A program made the translations under genes and the position numbers. A stretch of DNA of 23,251 bases from a virus: positions 1 through 23,251 of the IMG/VR virus record IMGVR_UViG_3300028388_001913; one strand, given 5' to 3'. Shown piece after piece: positions 2,029 through 23,251 of this stretch (within the stretch, counting starts at the first letter, position 1; each line of letters starts with the position of its first letter). The notes under the pieces are model-generated. The model had not been told where the DNA came from. It worked only from the letters and a program-made list of their open reading frames with translations, and ran no database searches.

Positions 2029-5000
2029 CTAATCATACATGTTCTTGTCTAGGGCTGCGTATACTCGTTCACTTGCTTCCTGGGAAAGCTTCTGCCGATT
2101 CATTTCAGCATTGATATTAACAGATACTGTAGGAGTATCATAGTCAATAAAGTTGTACAAGTCATCGTTTTCCGCAAACTTGTTTTTTCCAGCCTCATCA
2201 GTATCTTGCGCTAACTCTCCGTATTTCTCAGAGAGCTCGCCAATCTTCTGAGCAGCAATACTGACAGCCACAGCAGCAGCAGCGATAGCAATTGCGGGGC
2301 CAGCAGCCGCAGCGAGTCCAGCGCCAGCTGCAACAGTTCCACCAGCAATAGTGCCAGTCCCAGCACCCATGACATAGCCTAGACTGCTTGTACCAGCTGA
2401 AGCAGCAGCGGCCGAGAGCCCACCTGTGGTGGCAGCAGTTGTGCCAGCACTTACTCCGGCACTAACCCCTGTGCTGAGGATGTTGCCAATGTTGATTCCG
2501 CCTCCACCGCTTGAATTGCCTGTAAACAAGTCTTGAACAAAATTGACTGCAGCAGCTGCAGCTTGGGCAGCCAAAATATCGGCCACTGCCTTACTAAATG
2601 CTTCAGCAAAATTGGCAACCGCATCGATAACGTATTCGAAGAAGCTCTTAGCAGCGTCCTCGTTCTCCTTGATGCTCTTCTGTAATTCTCCGTATTCCTC
2701 GCGCAGTTCAACAAGTTTCTCTCGATACTTGTCTGCCTCTTCGCTGGTATACCCGTAAGTTTCTACGGCAGCGTCGTACAGCTCCTGGTAGTTGGCCAGA
2801 TTGCGCTGCATGATGCCTTCGTCAAAGAGCAGGCCTTCCCTTTCTTCAGCAAGAGCTTGCGCATCCTTCATCATCTGAACTGGGATAGTAAGCAACTCTT
2901 GGAAGAAGTTGGAAAGACTGTTCCAAAAGACAGACATTACTTCATCAACAGCAGTTTGAATGTCCTGTCCAGCAATCTCTTGAATGGCTCGACTTAGCTC
3001 AACACCCATTTGAGAAGCATATTGCTCTGCTTGTTCTGGACTCAACTCAATCCCAAACTCAGCAAGAAGCCTAGATGGGTTAGTCATCAGTGCTTCTAGT
3101 TGGGCAATAATGGCTTGGTTAGTTCGCCTCTGCCGGTCATTGCCTTGGTAATTTTCAAAGTCTCCCTGAACATTCTCTCGGATTTGTCTAACAAGAATGC
3201 CTACCAGAGAGCCAATGCTGCTGTTAAAACCACGCTTATCATTCGTGGTGTCAACCTCTCCAAGACGTAAATTCTCAAGAGCGGAAGCAACTTCTACATC
3301 ATCATTTGAATATGCCGGGTTTTGCTGAATCGCTAGTAGGTTCTCGCTAACACTCTTCTTAAGCAACTCAATTTCTGTTGCAAGCTGTAGCATCTCTTCG
3401 ATAAGCTGAGCGAGTTCACTCTCAGTTAAGCTAAGGGCGTCAGCTAATTCCGAAAAATTTGGAATAAGATTGGCTAACTGATTAGCGCTTAAGCTTTCAA
3501 GCTGCCCCAAGTACTGTTCATAGACAGCCGGAGAGATAACTCCATCTTCGTAGAGGGCGGTAATAGCACTAAGTGTGTTTTCTAGGAAACCCTGTAAATT
3601 CGTGAGGTAGTCCATTCCAATTTGGGCTGCTTGAGTTTCTAAAGCAGCAATTTCATCTTCGTCTGTGGACTGAGTAATTCGTTCGCTAATCGCATTTAAC
3701 TGGCTTGTGTAGATGCGGGCCATTTGAGTGATTGTGTCCTTCAAGCGGCCCATTGCAGCAGCAGGGTTAGATTCAAGCTGATTTTCAAATGTATCGCTAG
3801 CTAACTCGAACTCATCTCTAGCTTCTTGAGACATGTCCTCTAAGTCAGAAAGAATACGCTCGTTAATAGTTTCGCCTAGGGCAGCGATAATCCAGCTTCG
3901 CCACTCTTCAGGGAGCCTAGCAAGCTCTTCACCAAATAAACCTTCAGCCACGAACTCAGCACGTCCGCCTGTAGTGCCGCTAGCAACATACTCGGCAATC
4001 AGTGAACGAACGTCGCCCCTAGAAGTATCACCAAAGGAACCAATAAGTCCTTCAAGAATGCCTTCTCGGATGCCCTCTAGAGTACCTTCAAGTTGGCGCT
4101 TAGTTTCTGGTGTGGCTTCGTCTAGAAGAGACGAGATTTGTGAGTAGGTTGAGAGGAACTGGGCGACATCTTCTGCAGGAGTATCAGCACCGGTAAGGTT
4201 TCGTTCAGCATCTTGAGCTAAGTTTTCAATTAATCCGGTAAGTCCTTCTTGTTCAAGAAGAGAAATATTCTCGTCTAAGTTTGTAAGTCTGTCCTGGATA
4301 GATTCATCAATCTCGACACCTGCGGCTTCTAAGTTGTCAAGCAATTCTGCAAGGGCGGCTGCTCTATTAGAGCTGGTGCCCACTGCATTTTTTAAATCCG
4401 TGTTGTACGCCGAAACTGAACGAGGGCTAGTGTCTGTATCATCTAGGACATTTTGGATACTGTCAATCTCGTCATTAACAGCTTCAAAAATTCCAGCACC
4501 AATAACGTCATTTAGAATGAAGTCAAATCGTTCAGGCGAGAAGCCATTGCTTTCTAACCACCGAAGAATGCCTTCGGCAGAGAGAAGGTTAACCCCGTCC
4601 TGCTCCATTCTCTGGATGAACTCCTCAGCAGCACTTCTGTATGCTGTACGGCGCTCATCGTTAATACGGGAAATATCCGCATCACTATCCTGCAGTCCTA
4701 TCAGGATATCGAAGAGATTGTCTAATTCTTCGAAGCTTTCGACGAGGTTGTCAGCGTCGAGTAGCTGCTCAACGTCGGAGATGCGGTTCCTGGAAGCAGC
4801 TTCGATTGCCTCGCTTCTTGCTTCTCCTAAGTCGTAGCCTTCCAGTCGTTCACGTAACTCGCGTGCAGTATCCGCATCAAACTTAGCGATGTCACTGTTA
4901 GCAAGCCGACGAAGTAGGGCTTCTCGTAGCACAGCTGCACTGCTCAGTATCTCCTCGTAGTTTTCCGGCGTGTCCGACAGGTCGCTAAGAAGCTCGTCTA

Positions 5001-8000
5001 AGTCTTCGATGCCTTCGTTAATGTACGCAACTTCGCCTTCAGCCCTAATCCTCTGCTCTGCGTCTGTCCTGATGAGTCCGACACTCTCTGCTGCTTCTCG
5101 AAGCCTGTCAGCCTGATTGCGAACGAAACCAAGGATGGAGTCGAAGCCAGGTAGCGAGGAAGCCCAAGGTGTTGCGTTCTCAAGCATTTCGAGCAGTCCG
5201 TCGACGACAGCTTGCTGCTCTGCAATCTGGCGCTCATATTCAGACATCTGTTCGTCTAGAGAAGACAGCTGGGTTTCAATTCGCGCTTCAATGCTACTGT
5301 CTTGTAAGCCCATTCCGGAGACACTACTGACGAGCCTCTCTCGATTAGAGGCAATCTCTCGATTCCAGTCTTCAAACAATTCCGGCAAGTCCGTAGAGAG
5401 GGCCTCAAAGGCTGCAATAATTTCTTCTTGTAACGCTTCTTCTTCCTGCAGCATAGTGGAGATAACCTCTACTCCACGATTCTGAACGTCAGCCCTAGCT
5501 GTAATCGTTTCTTGAATGTCGACTTGAAGCTGGGCAATGTTTTCAGCAGTTTGAGTAATCTCTAATTGAAGTTGATGCCTTTCTTCTTCGTACTGTCCCT
5601 CTAAGTCTTCCGAAGAGTTTGGTAGAAGCGCGTAACTGCTTCGTAGGCTGGATAAAGACTGTTGCTGGTTACCCAACTCACTTTCTAGCCTTTGAAGCCT
5701 AGCTCCTAAGCTTTCATCTATTCGAGCAGCCAGTTCGCTGGTCAGGGTGTATCCGGTGGTGTCATCTGTAAGCAAATCACGAATTGATTGCAACTCATCG
5801 AATGCTTGTAATGACTCTTCGACAGTAGTGAGAAATGCTCCGGCCTCTCCAAGAAAGCCACGGTCACCTTCACCAAACCGTCCTAGTTCCTCTAACCCAT
5901 CTCGGATTCGGCTTCGGATGTCTCCTGCTGTGTCAATAACGCCACCAGAACCGTAGATGTTTTCTTGGATGACATCGCCTAAGTAGGCAAGTCCACCATC
6001 TGTCGAAGGTTGATAATTAGCCAGCTCTTCAACAACAGCACTAACCATATCCATGCCTTCATTTTGGCTCTCTAGTCTTTCAACAAATTCATCAATGCGA
6101 CGAACATCCCTATCGAAAGCCATTGCTGCAGCTAAAGCCGCTTCTAGCGCTTCGAATACAGGGCTTTCTTCGACAAGCTTAGAGTAGGGCATACTTGCTA
6201 GGTTGATGTCGCCAAATACAGCTTGCCGCTCGTCAAAGTTCATTTCGCTGTAGTCTCGGATGGTGTCTCGGGCAACCTCTAGGACATCTGTGACTGTGCC
6301 GTACGCAGAAGACAGAATAGTTTCAGCTGGACGTATTGCGTCTTCAAAATTGTCTAAGACTTCTTGCCGCATTTCCGCAAGCCCGAAGCGATACGCAGCT
6401 AGCGCCCGTAGTTGCTGCCTACGGTCATTCTGCGCTCTCGCAATCATCTGACCAATGTCAGTGTATTGTTCCCATCCACCAGCACTAAGTTGCGCAGACT
6501 CAAGCTCGGAAATCTTGACGCCGATTGCTTCGAGGCTACGCTCATACCTTGCGAAGCCTTTGGGCATGGCGGAAATCTCATCGCTAACAAGAGCGTAACG
6601 TTCATTGGCTTCGTTAACTAGAGTGTCCGCGATGGTGTCTTGCTGTTCGGCGATGGCTTCCACCAACAGTAGAAGTCGTGGGTCGTTTCTATCGACACCT
6701 TCATTCTGTAGATTTGTGACTTGTTCCGAAAGCATCTCGATGACTGCTTCGGCCCGTCGACGCCGGTATTGCGTGTCTCTTAAACCTGCTCGGTTGGTAG
6801 TAGTTTCAAATTCTGCGATGGCTGCTTCTTCGAAAGCATCCATCATTGTTCGCATGTCGCGGTATTCCTGAATGTCCTCAGCAATATTCCCAGCTTCTTG
6901 TAGAGTGATACCGGCCTCAGTCGAAAGGAATTCTTCAAACGCGCGTAACGCGTTAAGCTGCTCTAGAATGCTCTCGAAGCCCGTGTCTTCTAGCCGGTTA
7001 GTCACTTGCCGGACAGCCTGGTTAATACGACCGGCATCTTCCCTGGCTTCAACCTCTTCTTCTAGTACAGCCAATAACTCTTCGTCGTCAAGAAGCGTTG
7101 CCTCGACAATCCGTCGAGTCAGCCGCTGTCCTTGTGGCCCGAGGTATTCGTACGCCCTTGAGCGACCAGAGCCATCGGAGAAGGCATTTTCTAGAGATTC
7201 TTCCAAGTCCGACTTGAGGTTTTCGTAAGCTTCCCGGTCATTGAACACCCGGTCTACCAGGTCGATGACACTAACAATTGTGTCTCCAGCCGGTCCAAAG
7301 CCATCACCGGTAATGGCGGCAGACAAGCGTTCGTACTCGGTGCTGTTTTCAACCAGCTCGTCTAGGTTTCTTTCTATACCGTTAATGTTTAGCGTGCCGG
7401 TTTCGCGGTTGAACACAGGTTTATCGTCTTCTGTAAGAAGCCCGAGTGACTGTAGGTTTGTCGGGTCATACTGGTTTCTAGCTGCAGCACGGCGGCGGCT
7501 AGCGTCGACAATCATGCTGCCAGCAACGAATGCTCCAGTGACTGCGAGCATTGGAAGAGTGCTGACGACTAAGCTTCGCAAGCCAACCATGGCAGAACGA
7601 ACCATGCTCACGCTTCTAGTGAGTCCTGCCATCGCAGTGCTTCCTGCTCTGCCAAGACGAACCATGGCCCCAGTAGCCATATCAATGTCCGTCTTAAACT
7701 TCATTGTTGCCCCGCCAGCTGCTTGAATTTGTTTGACTAGGAGTTGCCAATTAGCAATTTGGTTCTTTGCTGCTGCGCCAATCGTGCCCATGAAGAACGA
7801 CACAACACGAAGTCCTGCAGAGAGGACGGCAATCGCCGAAGCGACAGCTAGGAAGCGATTTGCTACCTGTCCAATCGGCGTAGAGAAGATAGCTTCCATA
7901 GCCTCGGCAACACCCCGGATGGCCTTCAGGGTACCAAGGGCTGTCTGCTGAAGGGTAAGCATGAAGCGACTACCGCCACCAAGGCCGGCGTCGTCCAGTA

Positions 8001-9714
8001 CCTCTCTCCACGTTTGCTTGATGAGCTGTCCAACCCTGCGCTGTTGACGAGCAACATCATCAGAAAGCAGGCTATTCTTTACTGCTTCCGAGTAGTCTTC
8101 GGACTCTTGAATCCTTTCTTGATATAGCTTGTTACCTTCCTCGACAGCTTCATTAATTCCCATAATGGTTTCGTCTACTTCCCTACCAGTTTCTGCGTAG
8201 TAGAGAGCAGCAGCGATAAGTTCTGTGTAGCTAAGGCCAAGAGTTTGCTGTGCTTCGATTAGCTCATTAAAACGGTCAATGGCTTCGCCAGAAACGCCAC
8301 CACCAACCTGAAGAATCTCTGCATAAACAGCAGGGTTAAGGTTTTCCCGCTGCATTAGCTGGAAGTTCTTAGCTGTCTTCTGCATCACCTGGTCAACGGC
8401 GATGCCGTAGTTTTCGTACGCTTCTTGCGCTTCCTCAAGGAGTCGGCCCATGCCGCCCGTGTTCAAGTTACGGCGAGTCATCTCGACCATGATGTTGGAG
8501 AGCTCGGCTGAAGTCATTTCTGTGACAGCGCCTAACTCCTCAATTTCTTTGCGCAGCTGGGAAACACTATCAGCTTTGCTTGCTTCGTTCCTTTGGCTAA
8601 TTAGCCGTTCGTAAACTTCTAAGTTGTGGGTAAGCTGAGCTAAGTCAGCATTAATCTGTGCAACGCTCTGGATGGAAAGGAACACAGCGGCAGCACCCAA
8701 GCCACCAATAACGTTAGAAAAGATGTTCCGCAATTCCTGGTCAAAGCGGTCAATGGTAGGCCCGAACATGCCAGTAAACTGTTCGAATATCTCCGGGTTG
8801 TCCATTGCGCTCAACCCGGTCATTCCCTCGAAGGGAATAATCCTAGAGTTTACGCGGGCGTTGAACCTAGCGTTCTTTTCCAGGTTATTCATCCGGCTCA
8901 TCATTGAGCCTTGTTCAATGTCCCCCTGCATTTGGGTGTACATACCACCTTCACCAAGGTTCTGTTCAACTTTAGCTATTTGCTCATCCCAGTAAGCAAC
9001 CTCTTGACGAAGCTGCTCAAGGGAACGGTCCCGAGCTTGAACAATGGTGTCTTGGAACTGGGACATGGAAGCCAGGTAGTTCTTCATTGCGTCGGGCTTA
9101 ACAGCTTTGCCCTTTTGCAAGTTAGAACGCATCTGAGCTTGTGCCCGTTTAGCTTCAGTGATAACTCGTTGAGACTCCGGGTTAGCTCCCACAGCTGTGG
9201 CTAGAATTCCACCTTCTTCAGTCAGTTTCACCAAATCCGTGAACCGACGATTCCAGTCCTGCACCGTAATTTGCTTCTGCTGAACTTGTCGAATCTGCGA
9301 GTTATTAAACGCTTGTAAGTTGTCGTCAACAATCTTGAAATTATTCTCGTAAGAACGCACACCCTCAGAGATGTTTTTAGTTACGTTGCCGACTGTTCCC
9401 TGAAGGCGTTCAATCCCCTGGATGGCTGCTTGAGTATCGCCGTCTTTCCAAGCTTCGCCAATCTCTTTTTGTAACTCACCAATTTTCTGCATGTCAGCGG
9501 CGACTCGGGCAGCATCTAAACCACCAGCCCTACCTAACGGGCTATCCGCGAGCTGGTTACCGAAGTACTGGGCTCCTTTAGCGGAGGTAGCTAAATTAGC
9601 GCCAGGCGCCGTTCTGCGCAGTAGATTTTCCAGCGGGGCAATTGCACGCTTGATATCGTCCTGCAGTCCCTGAAGCGAAATATTTGCATCAATGTCCACG
9701 CGAGAACGGGCCAT
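2029..9714 (-). CDS. Tail tape measure protein, very long (2,561 aa)
   Basis: It sets tail length and sits inside the tail tube as an extended helical protein, helping DNA exit at infection. Evidence is position (directly after the frameshifted tail chaperones), great length, and architecture. Long Glu/Gln/Arg/Leu-rich helical or coiled-coil stretches cover most of the protein. Hydrophobic segments lie near residues 335-358, 615-645 and 716-737, and a Gly/Ala-rich hydrophobic tail spans about 2400-2490 (for example GLAAAAGPAIAIAAAAVAV). Such Ala/Gly membrane-like segments are usual in this family. The start ATG has GGAG 6 bases upstream. Residues 1180-1610 contain no lysine at all, while Arg and Glu are frequent. 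I see no peptidase or transglycosylase motif. At a rule-of-thumb 0.15 nm per residue, the tail would be about 380 nm, far longer than lambda's. Function is nearly certain. Confidence 0.95.
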   Translation of the reverse strand: MARSRVDIDANISLQGLQDDIKRAIAPLENLLRRTAPGANLATSAKGAQYFGNQLADSPLGRAGGLDAARVAADMQKIGELQKEIGEAWKDGDTQAAIQGIERLQGTVGNVTKNISEGVRSYENNFKIVDDNLQAFNNSQIRQVQQKQITVQDWNRRFTDLVKLTEEGGILATAVGANPESQRVITEAKRAQAQMRSNLQKGKAVKPDAMKNYLASMSQFQDTIVQARDRSLEQLRQEVAYWDEQIAKVEQNLGEGGMYTQMQGDIEQGSMMSRMNNLEKNARFNARVNSRIIPFEGMTGLSAMDNPEIFEQFTGMFGPTIDRFDQELRNIFSNVIGGLGAAAVFLSIQSVAQINADLAQLTHNLEVYERLISQRNEASKADSVSQLRKEIEELGAVTEMTSAELSNIMVEMTRRNLNTGGMGRLLEEAQEAYENYGIAVDQVMQKTAKNFQLMQRENLNPAVYAEILQVGGGVSGEAIDRFNELIEAQQTLGLSYTELIAAALYYAETGREVDETIMGINEAVEEGNKLYQERIQESEDYSEAVKNSLLSDDVARQQRRVGQLIKQTWREVLDDAGLGGGSRFMLTLQQTALGTLKAIRGVAEAMEAIFSTPIGQVANRFLAVASAIAVLSAGLRVVSFFMGTIGAAAKNQIANWQLLVKQIQAAGGATMKFKTDIDMATGAMVRLGRAGSTAMAGLTRSVSMVRSAMVGLRSLVVSTLPMLAVTGAFVAGSMIVDASRRRAAARNQYDPTNLQSLGLLTEDDKPVFNRETGTLNINGIERNLDELVENSTEYERLSAAITGDGFGPAGDTIVSVIDLVDRVFNDREAYENLKSDLEESLENAFSDGSGRSRAYEYLGPQGQRLTRRIVEATLLDDEELLAVLEEEVEAREDAGRINQAVRQVTNRLEDTGFESILEQLNALRAFEEFLSTEAGITLQEAGNIAEDIQEYRDMRTMMDAFEEAAIAEFETTTNRAGLRDTQYRRRRAEAVIEMLSEQVTNLQNEGVDRNDPRLLLLVEAIAEQQDTIADTLVNEANERYALVSDEISAMPKGFARYERSLEAIGVKISELESAQLSAGGWEQYTDIGQMIARAQNDRRQQLRALAAYRFGLAEMRQEVLDNFEDAIRPAETILSSAYGTVTDVLEVARDTIRDYSEMNFDERQAVFGDINLASMPYSKLVEESPVFEALEAALAAAMAFDRDVRRIDEFVERLESQNEGMDMVSAVVEELANYQPSTDGGLAYLGDVIQENIYGSGGVIDTAGDIRSRIRDGLEELGRFGEGDRGFLGEAGAFLTTVEESLQAFDELQSIRDLLTDDTTGYTLTSELAARIDESLGARLQRLESELGNQQQSLSSLRSSYALLPNSSEDLEGQYEEERHQLQLEITQTAENIAQLQVDIQETITARADVQNRGVEVISTMLQEEEALQEEIIAAFEALSTDLPELFEDWNREIASNRERLVSSVSGMGLQDSSIEARIETQLSSLDEQMSEYERQIAEQQAVVDGLLEMLENATPWASSLPGFDSILGFVRNQADRLREAAESVGLIRTDAEQRIRAEGEVAYINEGIEDLDELLSDLSDTPENYEEILSSAAVLREALLRRLANSDIAKFDADTARELRERLEGYDLGEARSEAIEAASRNRISDVEQLLDADNLVESFEELDNLFDILIGLQDSDADISRINDERRTAYRSAAEEFIQRMEQDGVNLLSAEGILRWLESNGFSPERFDFILNDVIGAGIFEAVNDEIDSIQNVLDDTDTSPRSVSAYNTDLKNAVGTSSNRAAALAELLDNLEAAGVEIDESIQDRLTNLDENISLLEQEGLTGLIENLAQDAERNLTGADTPAEDVAQFLSTYSQISSLLDEATPETKRQLEGTLEGIREGILEGLIGSFGDTSRGDVRSLIAEYVASGTTGGRAEFVAEGLFGEELARLPEEWRSWIIAALGETINERILSDLEDMSQEARDEFELASDTFENQLESNPAAAMGRLKDTITQMARIYTSQLNAISERITQSTDEDEIAALETQAAQIGMDYLTNLQGFLENTLSAITALYEDGVISPAVYEQYLGQLESLSANQLANLIPNFSELADALSLTESELAQLIEEMLQLATEIELLKKSVSENLLAIQQNPAYSNDDVEVASALENLRLGEVDTTNDKRGFNSSIGSLVGILVRQIRENVQGDFENYQGNDRQRRTNQAIIAQLEALMTNPSRLLAEFGIELSPEQAEQYASQMGVELSRAIQEIAGQDIQTAVDEVMSVFWNSLSNFFQELLTIPVQMMKDAQALAEEREGLLFDEGIMQRNLANYQELYDAAVETYGYTSEEADKYREKLVELREEYGELQKSIKENEDAAKSFFEYVIDAVANFAEAFSKAVADILAAQAAAAAVNFVQDLFTGNSSGGGGINIGNILSTGVSAGVSAGTTAATTGGLSAAAASAGTSSLGYVMGAGTGTIAGGTVAAGAGLAAAAGPAIAIAAAAVAVSIAAQKIGELSEKYGELAQDTDEAGKNKFAENDDLYNFIDYDTPTVSVNINAEMNRQKLSQEASERVYAALDKNMYD

Positions 9715-18107: not shown

Positions 18108-19526
18108 CTAGTTGAAAATCCTGTTGAGCTCATCTAAAGAAGCAAATTCATCATTGTCTAATGAGATGGAGAACCCGTCATCAGCGGTTTCAATCTCCCC
18201 ACCCTTATGCTCCGGAACGTGATACCAAGCCATGGCAAGACTGGACACTCTGTCGTCCTTGCCCCGTCCAGCTGCCTTCATCTGCAGCTTGCCGCTTGGT
18301 GTCCTCTCATAAATAAAGTCTCGAAATTCGTCTATGTATTCTCTTGAGTCAGGTAGTTTGATTCGCTTGTGCTCGATAGCGATTGCAAGCTTGTTGATAC
18401 AGGCTTCTTTGATGCTGTTGGTTTTCCATCCGAGGGCTTCGAATGGTATACCCATGCTCGCCATCTGACTCGCCAGGACATCACCCTGAGCATTGTCGTC
18501 AGCAACGACGTAACTGTTAGGCCACTTTTTGTGGAGTTGTTTGAGGTGCTCAAGCTGCCTCTCCCAAGCAATGGTATTAAGCCGCATTACCTCAACGACT
18601 TCCTTGTCGTCTAAGTCAACTACGGTGAACACACTGAAGTCGTCTAGGCGAGCAAAGTCTGCCCCAATAACGTACCTATGACCAATCTTTGGTCGCTTCA
18701 TAATGATGCTGTTATGGGTTTCTTGTACAATCTCAAGTCTAGGGCACTCACCCATCCCCTGAAATACACTCCCACTATCAGCAATAAATTCAGCGCCATA
18801 CTCTTGGTCGTACACACGCTCCGGAAGGATTGCCTTTTGCTGCTCAAAGAAGTCAGCAGGTACAGAGGGGTTAGCTTCCCACGTAGGAAGCTGCCAAGAA
18901 GCGTAACGGGTGTAGTTGGGGTAATTCGAAGAGTCTTGGTTGCGAAGTCCGAATTGGAAGAAGTCGTACACCCAGTCATAACCTTTGGGTGTCGTAATGA
19001 TGAGAACCCACCCATTCGTCGTTGTAAGAGTGGGGGCAAGAGCGGCAAACCAAACATTAGAGTCAATCATGGCTGCCTCGTCCAAGACGATGTAGTCCAG
19101 GCTGGCGCCTCGTAGGTTGTCGGGGTTGTCGCCGCTCTTGCCTTGGAAGCGTGTAAAACCTAAGAAGTTACCTTCTGGGCTGTAATGCTCGATGCGAAGC
19201 CTTAGGTTTCGATTGCTGATACTCAGCTTTCTTTTACCGGGAAGATAACTGTCTCCGCGCTTAACGTACTCCACAACCCTTTCAAAGATAATGGTAGCCT
19301 GTTCGTACGTCGGAGCTACTGTCCATCCCGTACTGCCAATGTTCGTGAGGGCTTCGAAAGCTGATTCTACGGCTGCAACTTCGCTCTTTCCACTCTGACG
19401 TCCGATGATGGCTGTCCTATACAGCGACCAGCTGTCATGAATGGCTTTCTGGTAAGGATAAGGCTTATACCCAATTATCTTAAAGAATTCTTCGCTTGGA
19501 GCAGCCTGGCGAATGTCCATCGACAC
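18108..19526 (-). CDS. terL: Terminase large subunit (packaging ATPase and nuclease)
   Basis: Drives DNA into proheads and cuts it. Numbering from the TTG at 19538: Walker A GRQSGKS at 46-52; Walker B LDYIVLDEA at 147-155 with Glu154; coupling motif ITTPKG at 181-186; and RNase H-like nuclease acids Asp294 (GADFARLDD), Asp347 or Asp348 (VVADDNA) and Asp429 (KDDRVSSLAMAW). All key residues are present. The longest open frame starts at TTG 19538 but has no ribosome site there. GTG at 19526 has GGAG 6 bases upstream, and ATG at 19520 is the next choice, so I take 19526. A TATAAT box lies 38 bases before this start, suggesting a dedicated promoter. Confidence 0.96.
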   Translation of the reverse strand: MSMDIRQAAPSEEFFKIIGYKPYPYQKAIHDSWSLYRTAIIGRQSGKSEVAAVESAFEALTNIGSTGWTVAPTYEQATIIFERVVEYVKRGDSYLPGKRKLSISNRNLRLRIEHYSPEGNFLGFTRFQGKSGDNPDNLRGASLDYIVLDEAAMIDSNVWFAALAPTLTTTNGWVLIITTPKGYDWVYDFFQFGLRNQDSSNYPNYTRYASWQLPTWEANPSVPADFFEQQKAILPERVYDQEYGAEFIADSGSVFQGMGECPRLEIVQETHNSIIMKRPKIGHRYVIGADFARLDDFSVFTVVDLDDKEVVEVMRLNTIAWERQLEHLKQLHKKWPNSYVVADDNAQGDVLASQMASMGIPFEALGWKTNSIKEACINKLAIAIEHKRIKLPDSREYIDEFRDFIYERTPSGKLQMKAAGRGKDDRVSSLAMAWYHVPEHKGGEIETADDGFSISLDNDEFASLDELNRIFN

Positions 19527-19556
19527 ATTGCGCTCCAATAAAAATATTCACAGTTA

Positions 19557-19593: not shown

Positions 19594-20205
19594 TCAGTCA
19601 TCTTCTCTAACTTTGACATCAACGGTTTCTGTCTCAAGCTGAGGAGTAGGCTTACGAGACAAGCGAGACATAAACTCTTCGTGGTCATCTTCACTCAACT
19701 GCTTGGCTGGACTGTCTTCTAGCTTTGCGGTGTTATCCGGCGTGGGCTCAGAAAGTCTTGCGAGCACGCTAGCCCTTCCTTGTCGAACCTTGTCAATAGC
19801 CTGCAGCAGGGACTGCAGCTCCTTCACGCTCATTGGCATTGCCTTACTACCGTCTTCGTAACGGGGGTTTCCGCTCCTCAGCTGGTAGAAGTCGCTCTTC
19901 GACTGGATGAACAAGTCTGTCAATTCCTGTTCAATCTGAACACTTCCAGCTAGGTATTCTCGGAACTCGTTCTCAGCCAAGCTCTGGTAAGACTCGTCCG
20001 TTAGGCACTCCTTCATGGTACGGACTGCCTCTAGGACATACTCGCGAACATTGCCTTCAATGGGGACTTGGCTAGTTTTTAATAACTCCACAATCTCAAT
20101 TGCCGTATAGCCCCACAGATAGTATGTCCATATCTGCTTATAGTTTGGAATGTCCTCAGGGGTAGGAGCTGCCTCGGCAGGAACACCCTTGACTGTGACG
20201 CCCAT
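19594..20205 (-). CDS. Probable small terminase subunit
   Basis: A 203-aa protein. It sits one gap before the large terminase, where the DNA-recognition subunit normally is. Residues 20-45 (YYLWGYTAIEIVELLK) look like a helix-turn-helix. The middle (about 75-140) is helical and could form the ring oligomer, and the C-terminus is polar and acidic (VKVREDD), as in parts that contact large terminase. The ATG overlaps the preceding stop as TAATG. Family similarity is weak by eye, so the ParB-like neighbour could instead supply DNA recognition. Confidence 0.5.
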   Translation of the reverse strand: MGVTVKGVPAEAAPTPEDIPNYKQIWTYYLWGYTAIEIVELLKTSQVPIEGNVREYVLEAVRTMKECLTDESYQSLAENEFREYLAGSVQIEQELTDLFIQSKSDFYQLRSGNPRYEDGSKAMPMSVKELQSLLQAIDKVRQGRASVLARLSEPTPDNTAKLEDSPAKQLSEDDHEEFMSRLSRKPTPQLETETVDVKVREDD

Positions 20206-20990
20206 TATTCGTCACCGATACCGTGAAACGCGTCCTTTTCAAAATTTCTAAGAGCTTCCATTACTGCGTAAACTCGTTTGTTGCCTTTTGTTGCAGGCAA
20301 GTCATCATCTCCCGTAGCACTAAGTACTAGGGTGATAAGGCTTTCAAATTCGTCTACTGCTAGTTCATCCTCGAAAGGTAGGACGACATTGAGAGTGTTT
20401 CTCTCCTTGTATCCAGTCGGACGTTCTGTCTTCGAGCCCGACCCACCGTTCGGGGTTTTATTGGGGGTGGGCGAAGAAGCCCGCTGCGTTGCGGCGAGAG
20501 ACGAGAGCGAACGCTTGAGAAAGGCTTCGTGTTGTCCCATAGTCTTGGCAACTTCTTCTAGGCTCCGGTTCTTCATCAACCACTGCGTAATGACAGCCGT
20601 CTTCTCCTCGTTCTCTAGGCTGCCTCGGCCCTTGTGGTTCAAGACTTGTCCGAGCTCAGCTAGACGCTGCTTGCCGAATTCGCTGAGTTTCCCCATCACA
20701 AGAACGGGAATATCAGGCGAATTGGTTAGGCCTCGCATGAATGCATTCTTGTAGGCCATCGTCTTCTGTTCTCCATCGACGATGAGGTACCCTTCACGAG
20801 CTTCGTGGATGTCTCCATTATACTCAATGTCAGCATCCCACTCGACAACAAGAGGAGCATCAATCATGCCGTTAACACCGATACTCTCGATGAGCGCATC
20901 CATCTCATCTTCGGTGGTGCCGTGAGGATTCCAAGGGTTGGGGTGAACGTTCATCACCTTCACGTATTCAAGAGTCAGCTTCTGAGTCAT
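20205..20990 (-). CDS. ParB/sulfiredoxin-fold DNA-associated protein
   Basis: A 261-aa protein. Residues 14-50 (NVHPNPWNPHG, then SIGVNGMIDAPLVVEW) and 67-83 (GYLIVDGEQKTMAYKNA) match the two core boxes of the ParB N-terminal fold, where GEHR is usual; here it is GEQK, so the canonical ParB CTP-binding arginine box is altered. Residues 142-165 (SLEEVAKTMGQHEAFLKRSL) look like a helix-turn-helix. A Ser/Pro/Gly linker follows. The longest frame begins at 21119, but that part lies inside the nuclease gene; ATG 20990 has AGGAAG just upstream and gives the usual ParB box spacing. Such proteins occur near phage terminase genes; role here is unknown. Confidence 0.75.
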   Translation of the reverse strand: MTQKLTLEYVKVMNVHPNPWNPHGTTEDEMDALIESIGVNGMIDAPLVVEWDADIEYNGDIHEAREGYLIVDGEQKTMAYKNAFMRGLTNSPDIPVLVMGKLSEFGKQRLAELGQVLNHKGRGSLENEEKTAVITQWLMKNRSLEEVAKTMGQHEAFLKRSLSSLAATQRASSPTPNKTPNGGSGSKTERPTGYKERNTLNVVLPFEDELAVDEFESLITLVLSATGDDDLPATKGNKRVYAVMEALRNFEKDAFHGIGDE

Positions 20991-21612
20991 AATCTTCCTG
21001 TAATTGAATAATCTCGTCCAGTGTCTTGTTCTCCATCCATGTTTCCATGAAATAGAAGTTGTAGTAACTGGTGCCGAACGGTGCTTTAGCGGGCACAGAA
21101 AGTGCATCCTTACCGTCAATGTGTTGCACCATGTCTACCTTGTCGAATGTCCATTCCGCGACAGGTGTGTCTCCGGCTATGCCGACGAGAATGAGCTTGT
21201 CCACCAGGAGGCTGTACTGCCTTGAGTGGAGCCGGAATCGCCAGCGCGGTGTCCTAACCATTGAGTCTGTCTGCAGCGAAGCTCCCTTAACCTCGTAGGA
21301 CTCGTCGCCAATGTGGCAGTCAATGGTGCCGTTGTTCCCTGGCATTACAGTTGCGTCATATTTTTTGACTACGTGTTCAATAGCAATATCTGCGATACGC
21401 TGAGTAGTCTTTGGAAGTCCTCCGCAAGCCACAATGAACTTGCCCCAACTTCCAAACTGAATTTGCACTTGCCGTTCAGCTGGATATTGCCTTCCGTGCT
21501 TATCACGAAAATAAGCCAAGTTTTCTCCCCGCCAGTCTAAGCGAGCGGGGAGGCGATTTTCTTGTCTTTGAAAATGGAATGCCAGAGAGATAAATTCCTC
21601 TCTCTTATCCAT
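20968..21612 (-). CDS. Probable PD-(D/E)XK endonuclease with homing-endonuclease-type repeat
   Basis: A 214-aa protein. Residues 20-65 (ending QIQFGSWGKFIVACGG) match the pattern of homing endonuclease associated repeats, small DNA-binding domains with a conserved FGSW...A.G end. Residues 96-110 read TIDCHIGDESYEVKG, that is Asp98 followed by Glu107-Val-Lys109, the spacing of a PD-(D/E)XK nuclease core. Aromatic, beta-rich residues follow. It is preceded by an extended -10 promoter so close that the mRNA has almost no leader. It overlaps the ParB-like gene by 23 bases. It could be a free-standing homing nuclease, or a phage nuclease acting in packaging or host DNA breakdown. Nuclease call is moderate; target is unknown. 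Confidence 0.6.
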   Translation of the reverse strand: MDKREEFISLAFHFQRQENRLPARLDWRGENLAYFRDKHGRQYPAERQVQIQFGSWGKFIVACGGLPKTTQRIADIAIEHVVKKYDATVMPGNNGTIDCHIGDESYEVKGASLQTDSMVRTPRWRFRLHSRQYSLLVDKLILVGIAGDTPVAEWTFDKVDMVQHIDGKDALSVPAKAPFGTSYYNFYFMETWMENKTLDEIIQLQEDYDSEADS

Positions 21613-21621
21613 ACGTGTTTA

Positions 21622-21630
21622 ATTATAGCA
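21622..21630 (-). promoter_or_regulatory. Extended -10 promoter (near-leaderless) for the nuclease gene
   Basis: The minus strand reads TGCTATAAT, a perfect extended -10 element, ending 9 bases before the ATG at 21612. Transcription starting 7 bases on would leave a 2-4 base leader. No ribosome site is present. A TTGACA (21638-21643) is only 10 bases away, too near to be its -35 box. Confidence 0.6.
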
Positions 21631-21712: not shown

Positions 21713-22318
21713 CTATAAAAACCCAATCTCTAGAAGCTGTCTATCTGCAAGTGCCTGAACAACTATGTCTTTAGCTTTCTTGCCTGTAGCTGACACATAT
21801 CCGAATAGTTCATGAGGTAACTGGACTTCCTCATCAAAGTACATCATTGGCACTACATACGTACACAGCTTTATAGGCCGTTCGTTCGTATCGCTTAGAA
21901 TACTCCGGCCTCTTCGCCAGCCTAACTCCTTGTACACAGACTCCATTTTATTGGGTTTGCTCCAAACCTTATCTCCAACCTCATAGAAGCAACCAAAATC
22001 TAGAGGGACTTTCTCTTTCTCCATTTCATGCTGTAAAGGCTTTAAACATTTGATGCCCAACGGCGGCAATACTTCTTTGCTAAGCCACTTAAATAGAGTG
22101 ACATGCGCATACATCAAAACCATCCTGAGATGGGCTTCTTGCACAGTCCCAGTTTCTTTGAAATATTCCCTTACCGTCTTCACTACCAATGGCCAATGCG
22201 AAGAAGAAGTCCCAGTAATCAGACCAGGATGGATAGTGAAGGACAGCTTGTCTTCCAGTAGTACCTCCTGCTGAACGGCGGCACCACCGCGTTGGTAATG
22301 CAAGAGCATATCCTTCAT
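21713..22318 (-). CDS. Unrecognised protein, first gene of the leftward cluster
   Basis: A 201-aa protein beginning MKDMLLHYQR. I recognise no family. It has a mixed alpha/beta pattern, a Lys/Glu-rich middle, Trp-rich spots (SSHWPLV, KVWSKPN, LGWRRGR) and no membrane segment or Cys cluster. The longest frame begins with GTG at 22324, but the -10 box (22325-22330) touches it, so the mRNA would start at about 22318, the ATG, which I take. The gene has its own promoter and is followed by a 100-base gap with no clear terminator. Position ahead of a nuclease and ParB-like gene suggests an early or regulatory role, but this is only context. Confidence 0.7.
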   Translation of the reverse strand: MKDMLLHYQRGGAAVQQEVLLEDKLSFTIHPGLITGTSSSHWPLVVKTVREYFKETGTVQEAHLRMVLMYAHVTLFKWLSKEVLPPLGIKCLKPLQHEMEKEKVPLDFGCFYEVGDKVWSKPNKMESVYKELGWRRGRSILSDTNERPIKLCTYVVPMMYFDEEVQLPHELFGYVSATGKKAKDIVVQALADRQLLEIGFL

Positions 22319-22324
22319 ACGCAC

Positions 22325-22378: not shown

Positions 22379-22431
22379 GGGGTTTGGTTTGGGGAGGGGG
22401 GATAAGAGTTTGGGTTTTAAAAAATTTGGGG
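22379..22431 (+). other. G-run tract in the divergent intergenic region
   Basis: The plus strand carries G runs of 4, 2, 4, 6, 3 and 4 within 53 bases, spaced by T- and A-rich bits, including GGGGTTTGGTTTGGGG. It lies just upstream of the leftward promoter, between divergent genes. Four runs of three or more G make an intramolecular quadruplex possible. I see no gene in 22325-22587. Confidence 0.5.
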
Positions 22432-22496
22432 TTACTAGGAATAGGAATATGCCGTCCTAGACGATAAAAACTACCCCCCGAGCGTCTGTGCGCGTG

Positions 22497-22560
22497 GCGG
22501 CTGGGCCGGCTATCATTGTATTAGAAGGAAGGGAGGAACGAACGACCTCAAGCCAGCCGC
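22497..22560 (+). repeat. 8-bp inverted repeat in the leader of the rightward gene
   Basis: GCGGCTGG (22497-22504) and CCAGCCGC (22553-22560) are exact reverse complements 48 bases apart. They flank the candidate -10 box and end 27 bases before the start codon. They might be an operator or part of an RNA fold; a GC-rich chance match is also possible. Confidence 0.35.
22511..22516 (+). promoter_or_regulatory. Candidate -10 box of the rightward gene
   Basis: TATCAT matches five of six bases of the -10 consensus in an otherwise GC-rich stretch. No convincing -35 box lies 16-18 bases upstream (GTGCGC). RNA would start near 22523, giving a leader of about 65 bases that includes a purine-rich GAAGGAAGGGAGGAA. 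Confidence 0.35.
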
Positions 22561-22587
22561 ACCTCGCCTCTAGCGAAAGGGATACCT

Positions 22588-23103
22588 ATGCCTCGCAACC
22601 TGAACCTCACGCCCGAAACCTTTGTCAACCTCGTAGGCTCCGATGACGAAGACGTTATCCTGGCGCAAGCCGCCGACGGCACGCCGCCCGAAGGCTACCT
22701 CGCGGCGCTCAAAGATGAACGCGAGCGGCTGCCGTGGGCCACGGATGCCTTCGGTCAAGTCGGAGTCGACGCCTACGGCCGCGCGGTCGCCGAAGTGGAC
22801 GGCTACACGGTGGCGTTCACGGGGTTCACTCGGAAGCAGCGCCAGGCCGGCAATGGCGCGGTGGACGTCGACGAAGTACGCGCGTACTACAAAGTCGGGA
22901 CGCCCGGCGGCTACCATCCGAACGAAGGCGCGACGGTCACGCTCTCGGCCCTGACGGTGAACGCGAAGAAGGCCGCGAAGAAGCGGGCGACGTCGGCGCA
23001 CGCGGGGCCCGTCTACCGCGCGACGGTGGCGACGTGGAACCTGGATGATGCACTGGCGGCGAAGGTGTCCGAGGCGCTGGCGAAGGAGCTGGGCCTGGGA
23101 TAG
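22588..23103 (+). CDS. Rightward GC-rich gene, unknown function
   Basis: A 171-aa protein, begins MPRNLNLTPE. I do not recognise a family. The first half is acidic (GSDDEDVILAQAADG). The middle holds GYTVAFTGFTRKQRQAGNGA and a Tyr/Gly beta-like part (VRAYYKVGTPGGYHPNEGATVT). Then comes a basic run (NAKKAAKKRA) and a helical end (DDALAAKVSEALAKELGLG). Third codon positions are mainly G or C, which supports this frame over the overlapping minus-strand frame. GC is about 72% by hand count of 22681-22740, against 45% in one line of the tape measure gene. AAAGGGA lies about 5 bases before the ATG. It is divergent from the late genes and has a UUCG terminator. The composition suggests a different origin, high expression or a different genome module. 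Confidence 0.8.
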   Translation: MPRNLNLTPETFVNLVGSDDEDVILAQAADGTPPEGYLAALKDERERLPWATDAFGQVGVDAYGRAVAEVDGYTVAFTGFTRKQRQAGNGAVDVDEVRAYYKVGTPGGYHPNEGATVTLSALTVNAKKAAKKRATSAHAGPVYRATVATWNLDDALAAKVSEALAKELGLG

Positions 23104-23111
23104 CGGGCGAA

Positions 23112-23131
23112 GGGGGGCCTTCGGGCCCCCC
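23112..23131 (+). terminator. UUCG-tetraloop terminator of the rightward gene
   Basis: GGGGGGCC (23112-23119), loop TTCG, GGCCCCCC (23124-23131): an 8-bp GC-only stem with the very stable C(UUCG)G loop, starting 9 bases after the stop. No T-tract follows (TCACAACC), so termination may depend on other factors. Confidence 0.7.
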
Positions 23132-23132
23132 T

Positions 23133-23156
23133 CACAACCTCACAAGCGCACAAGCG
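23133..23156 (+). repeat. Three tandem 8-base CACAA units
   Basis: CACAACCT, CACAAGCG and CACAAGCG follow each other without gaps; the last two are identical. The same CACAA occurs inverted and direct in the hairpin just downstream. They could be protein-binding iterons or a small chance expansion. Confidence 0.4.
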
Positions 23157-23168
23157 GGCGGGAGCCCA

Positions 23169-23193
23169 TTTGTGCTCGCTTCGCTCGCACAAA
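23169..23193. repeat. Inverted repeat with CGC-TTCG loop
   Basis: TTTGTGC (23169-23175) and GCACAAA (23187-23193) form a 7-bp stem around TCGCTTCGCTC. On the plus strand it is followed by AGTTCTG, a poor terminator tail; on the minus strand by TGGGCTCC. The remaining bases to 23251 show no gene. Confidence 0.45.
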
Positions 23194-23251
23194 AGTTCTG
23201 CGGCACCGTAGACGCCACGACGTCCTGCGCCAGAGAGCGAGTATCCCCTTC

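Follow-up and report, generated by a model that had tools for sequence, protein, structure and literature searches.

A conserved predicted PD-(D/E)XK nuclease encoded beside the terminase genes of P23-45/phiFa-like phages and its possible role at the genome end

The IMG/VR viral record IMGVR_UViG_3300028388_001913 (the window, 23,251 nt) includes a small gene that lies immediately ahead of the ParB-like and terminase genes. The question raised by this locus is whether the gene is a free-standing homing element or belongs to the packaging machinery. An earlier note, made from the sequence alone, had left both possibilities standing in view of the gene's own promoter and location, and had observed that a pattern known from homing nucleases appeared to be joined to a PD-(D/E)XK active site. 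The ORF is genuine and begins with ATG. The features of the region are listed in Table 1; the probable tape-measure ORF indicates that the phage is probably long-tailed.

Table 1. Features of the window, in order of position
Feature	Position	Strand	Basis or remark
ORF, 2561 aa, probable tape-measure type	2029-9714	(-)	Length and position
Large terminase (TerL)	18108..19538	(-)	
Small terminase (TerS)	19594..20205	(-)	By position and 39 % identity to the TerS-position protein of L006
ParB-like protein	20205..20990	(-)	Start overlaps nuclease 3' end by 23 bp
Nuclease gene	20968..21612	(-)	PHROG_24814, 214 aa
PD-(D/E)XK core, residues 67-192	21037..21414	(-)	Alignment, model, fold matches
Predicted catalytic codons	D98 21319-21321, E107 21292-21294, K109 21286-21288	(-)	
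Helical HNH_repeat-like domain, residues 1-66, presumed DNA-binding	21415..21612	(-)	Profile comparison, model
Extended -10 promoter, TGCTATAAT	21622..21630	(-)	9 nt ahead of nuclease ATG
ORF between nuclease and terminus element	21713..22324	(-)	L006 homologue in same place (29 %, E 1e-21)
Candidate packaging-terminus element	22429..22485	(+)	Aligned upstream regions; weak match in window
Divergent ORF, 171 aa	22588-23103	(+)	

The protein is a predicted PD-(D/E)XK endonuclease with a conserved active site. The Asp98...Glu107-X-Lys109 arrangement described previously is present, and D98, E107, K109, G110, R127, H129, R131 and S134 are kept in all 10 aligned homologous sequences, with V143, P150 and D166 likewise invariant. 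Conservation of the D, E, K and G holds at 28-49 % identity to the window nuclease. An AlphaFold2 model based on seven sequences (mean pLDDT 83) has helices within residues 3-62 and at 68-85 and 133-136, and strands at 99-101, 104-114, 123-127, 139-146 and 149-157, which is the element order of PD-(D/E)XK proteins (alpha-beta-beta-beta-alpha-beta type). When the core was compared with solved structures using Foldseek and VIA-align, the best match was I-Ssp6803I (Z 10.4, 113 residues, rmsd 2.7 Å, 10 % identity), followed by NhoI and Eco15I (both Z 10.1). The restriction enzymes NhoI, Eco15I and PvuII together span Z 7-10, and archaeal Hjc resolvases matched more weakly (Z 5.6-7.0). Matches no more than 1 Z unit apart count as ties, and the ranking therefore points to no one family. 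Structure prediction thus returned the nuclease fold that had been suspected, and the protein presumably cuts DNA. The protein itself had no match in Pfam, an HNH nuclease domain was not found in it, and no solved structure was matched in a sequence-profile search.

The FGSW...ACGG pattern is found at residues 53-65, as claimed. The Pfam model HNH_repeat (PF18780) matched relatives of the window nuclease (E=2e-5 for stolb2 and 1.3e-4 for P23-45) under its gathering score, the best relative reaching 25.3 bits versus 26. However, when nine nuclease N-termini were compared with nine genuine HNH_repeats using hhalign, the profiles matched with a probability of 97 % and an E value of 1e-10. Modelled alone, the N-terminus forms a confident five-helix domain; no convincing match to it was found in the PDB (best Z 4.0), although this is no proof of a new fold. 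This HNH_repeat-like domain is presumed to bind DNA. The modelled core and the profile match of the N-terminus support the pairing of the two domains, which had been called unusual. We found no solved or named example that includes a typical PD-(D/E)XK core, but pairings of this kind are known, since HNH_repeat is promiscuous and also accompanies HNH and LAGLIDADG cores, namely HNH_3 in HRTV-27 and LAGLIDADG in VOLN27B (and, weakly, in Natrinema).

The window nuclease matches PHROG_24814 at 6e-17, a family whose function is unassigned there and whose members are recorded as 'hypothetical protein', or as 'endonuclease' in the stolb records. Homologues in annotated phages are phiFa_51 (36 % identical), P23-45 gp80 (31 %), proteins of G20c, P74-26 and TSP4, and those of three stolb isolates, with the homologue at one place per record; phiFa, P23-45, G20c and TSP4 infect Thermus. 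The IMG/VR relatives are L006, which is closer (about 50 %), and P23-45 itself, and a scan anchored on TerL added four nuclease-bearing loci, L012-L015. A single-protein scan for close relatives across viral contigs matched nothing to the window nuclease, and a scan of genome contigs gave zero relatives and thus neither a prophage nor a cellular copy. A literature search found no paper on P23-45 gp80 and no function test for gp80 or phiFa_51.

The position of the gene just upstream of the ParB-like and terminase genes was borne out. Downstream of it in the window, and on the same strand, are the genes for the ParB-like protein, TerS and TerL, in that order. The TerS ORF had no PHROG match and no significant Pfam match. 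The order nuclease, (small ORF), ParB-like, TerS, TerL, portal is found in P23-45, stolb2 and phiFa, and L006, L012, L014 and L015 share the nuclease-to-portal order as far as the contigs reach. TSP4 has the same order as P23-45, except that TerS is not annotated. The ORF that precedes the nuclease gene in the window has no detectable homology to phiFa_50.

A promoter dedicated to the nuclease gene had also been proposed. TGnTATAAT occurs once in the window when both strands are counted, directly ahead of the nuclease start codon, and the motif recurs upstream of the nuclease genes of L006 and L012 (TGGTATAAT). Being of the extended -10 class, this promoter was missed by a sigma-70 scan that included a -35 box. 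Its sequence would fit a late promoter used by the host polymerase and giving a near-leaderless message.

A protein with this core, encoded in a packaging operon, might be a branch-resolving or debranching enzyme that clears replication and recombination junctions before packaging, like T4 endonuclease VII, and the similarity of the core to archaeal Hjc is in keeping with this. Such a function is unlikely, as it is weakened by the presence of a separate Hjc-type resolvase in P23-45, TSP4, G20c and phiFa (PMC8805305), and the homing-type N-terminal DNA-binding domain suggests recognition of a sequence.

The distribution and inheritance of the gene bear on whether it is mobile. In an HMM search of all fetched loci, every locus whose TerL reached 40 % identity had the nuclease, and no locus whose TerL was at 33 % or below had it, though absence from the latter is less certain, as some contigs are short. 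It is present in TSP4 (TerL 37 % identical). Among relatives with TerL identity of at least 37 %, an empty site was not found, and the gene is always at the same place. Pairwise nuclease identities correlate with the corresponding values for ParB, TerS and TerL (r 0.95-0.97), and the nuclease tree branches in the same way as the TerL tree. In close pairs, dN/dS is 0.064 (P23-45/stolb2) and 0.073 (L014/L015), indicating strong purifying selection. A free-standing homing endonuclease, propagating itself through cuts in the packaging region of phages that lack it, much as the earlier note had envisaged, would account for the HNH_repeat-like N-terminus, typical of homing enzymes, and for the homing enzyme I-Ssp6803I being the closest PD-(D/E)XK fold. 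However, a constant location with no empty allele in the clade, inheritance that is not independent of the neighbours, purifying selection and the overlap with the downstream ParB gene all argue against this, and we regard it as improbable. The nuclease is a constant component of the packaging module in P23-45/phiFa-like phages, though an ancient homing enzyme, since domesticated, is a possible origin. As it is the first operon gene beside the genome end in every known relative, it most likely helps to cut or mark phage DNA for packaging and is less likely to be selfish.

In P23-45, the right direct terminal repeat (DTR) starts at 83631, 232 bp upstream of the nuclease start codon (83399). In phiFa, the 3' DTR begins at about 71022-71033, about 0.9 kb upstream of the nuclease start (70101). 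The phiFa genome end was mapped by long reads, and it has been suggested that this phage cleaves its concatemer at a defined position (PMC7515739). The annotated start of the phiFa 3' repeat (MH673672.2, 71022; L002:5054-5065) is ~11 nt off the first base of the record (GCCAACC). The deposited left ends read GGGTTGCCC/CCCAAC in P23-45 and GGGTTGCGTGGTGACCC/GCCAAC in phiFa, the slash marking the end, and each mapped end sits inside an inverted repeat of the form GGGTTG...CCAAC, with CAAC starting 2 nt beyond it.

These mapped DTR ends fall in a conserved non-coding element. The candidate element in the window consists of an inverted repeat, CTAGGA-N14-TCCTAG (22435-22460), followed by GATAAAAACTACCCCCC (22463-22479), and from the alignment of upstream regions the DTR end of the window phage is predicted to lie near 22444/22445, within the inverted repeat. 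An A-tract followed by a C-tract is found upstream of the nuclease gene, near the end, in all lineages. The pattern AAAAAN{1,5}CCCYCC occurs nowhere else in the records of the window, L006, L012 and P23-45; because it was refined from a first A/C-motif pattern after the sequences had been inspected, no P value is claimed for it. Leave-one-out profiles recovered the element in phiFa (E 9e-10), L014 (6e-8) and L012 (1e-4), and matched weakly in L006 (0.4) and the window (1.5), each of these being the top hit and at the expected place. A profile from five phages did not find the P23-45 site significantly, and the parts of the P23-45 element are in a different order. Pairwise comparison of 150-bp segments at the DTR ends gave nothing significant, and more was learned from aligning the upstream regions. 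Alternatively, this element could serve as a TerS site or as an early promoter.

Just beyond the element, the GC content of the window rises from ~48 % to 67-69 % (22550-23251). As the GC content climbs likewise ahead of the nuclease gene in L012 and L014, the rise may mark the repeat or early region rather than a chimeric join. The divergent ORF in this part occupies the spot of the first terminal-repeat gene in P23-45 and phiFa; relatives of it were not found in phages or IMG/VR.

Gene position by itself does not prove a role in packaging. Nevertheless, the isolated TerL nuclease of G20c is apparently not sequence-specific in vitro (PMC5389553), which leaves room for a partner, and the HNH protein gp74 of HK97 stimulates cos cleavage by TerL (PMC9410871). 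Taken with the proposed fixed cut of phiFa, these findings make a packaging-cut partner the best reading of the nuclease. It is probably packaging-associated, acting with the terminase at the DTR boundary to make or license the terminal cut. The HNH_repeat-like domain would bind DNA, the nuclease would work with the ParB-like protein, TerS and TerL at the DTR boundary of the replicated concatemer, and it would make or license the site-specific break, either a nick or a double-strand cut, with which packaging starts (or ends). We infer that the terminus element is its target and that it cooperates with the terminase. Our literature search found no account of what cuts P23-45/phiFa-type ends at a fixed sequence.

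Phage nucleases often target host or rival DNA and this fold resembles that of restriction enzymes, but an enzyme that degrades host DNA or excludes superinfecting phages and is in the late operon by chance is also improbable, given that the nuclease is invariably the first packaging-operon gene, next to the DTR end, in an operon with no methyltransferase or immunity gene.

The role in packaging favoured here can be set against systems already in use. P23-45, P74-26 and G20c serve as standard models in structural work on DNA packaging, and for P23-45 there is an in vitro packaging system. In vitro packaging of HK97 has been reported with few components, TerL and procapsid (PMC9410871). Together, the HK97 and P23-45 systems suggest that the nuclease may be dispensable for translocation. 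With a conserved nuclease beside the DTR end and a conserved element at the cut, the question of end cutting is testable in existing systems.

Among known proteins, P23-45 gp80 and phiFa_51 have full-length homology to the window nuclease, with identical invariant residues and an identical operon position. I-Ssp6803I, the best match to the core fold, lacks an HNH_repeat-like N-terminus over the range that aligned; it is an intron-encoded homing endonuclease, whereas the window gene does not look mobile. NhoI, Eco15I and PvuII have the same core fold, but no sequence homology to them was detected and there is no partner methylase in the window operon. The HNH_repeat proteins of haloviruses share the N-terminal module but have HNH or LAGLIDADG cores. 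The same module stands alone in Microcystis phage Mae-JY09, as a free-standing single HNH_repeat protein encoded two genes ahead of TerL (L099:1132-1386), and is present in five copies in gp35 of Geobacillus virus E3 (L101:1-1539), the C-terminus of which is Vsr-like by eye only.

The HNH packaging endonucleases of the HK97 gp74 type are likewise small phage nucleases encoded beside the terminase, and gp74 aids the packaging cut of HK97. The window nuclease shares with them the feature of a conserved gene beside the terminase, though this is an analogy only: gp74 has an HNH fold and belongs to a cos phage, the window nuclease has a PD-(D/E)XK fold and DTR relatives, and the two are not homologous. 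We tentatively suggest, as a possibility somewhat short of even, a second, non-HNH class of terminase partner, in which a PD-(D/E)XK core with a domesticated homing-type domain would recognise the conserved inverted repeat and A/C element and cut the ends of long DTRs site-specifically. If this is true, phages have recruited different nuclease folds for one terminase-partner job.
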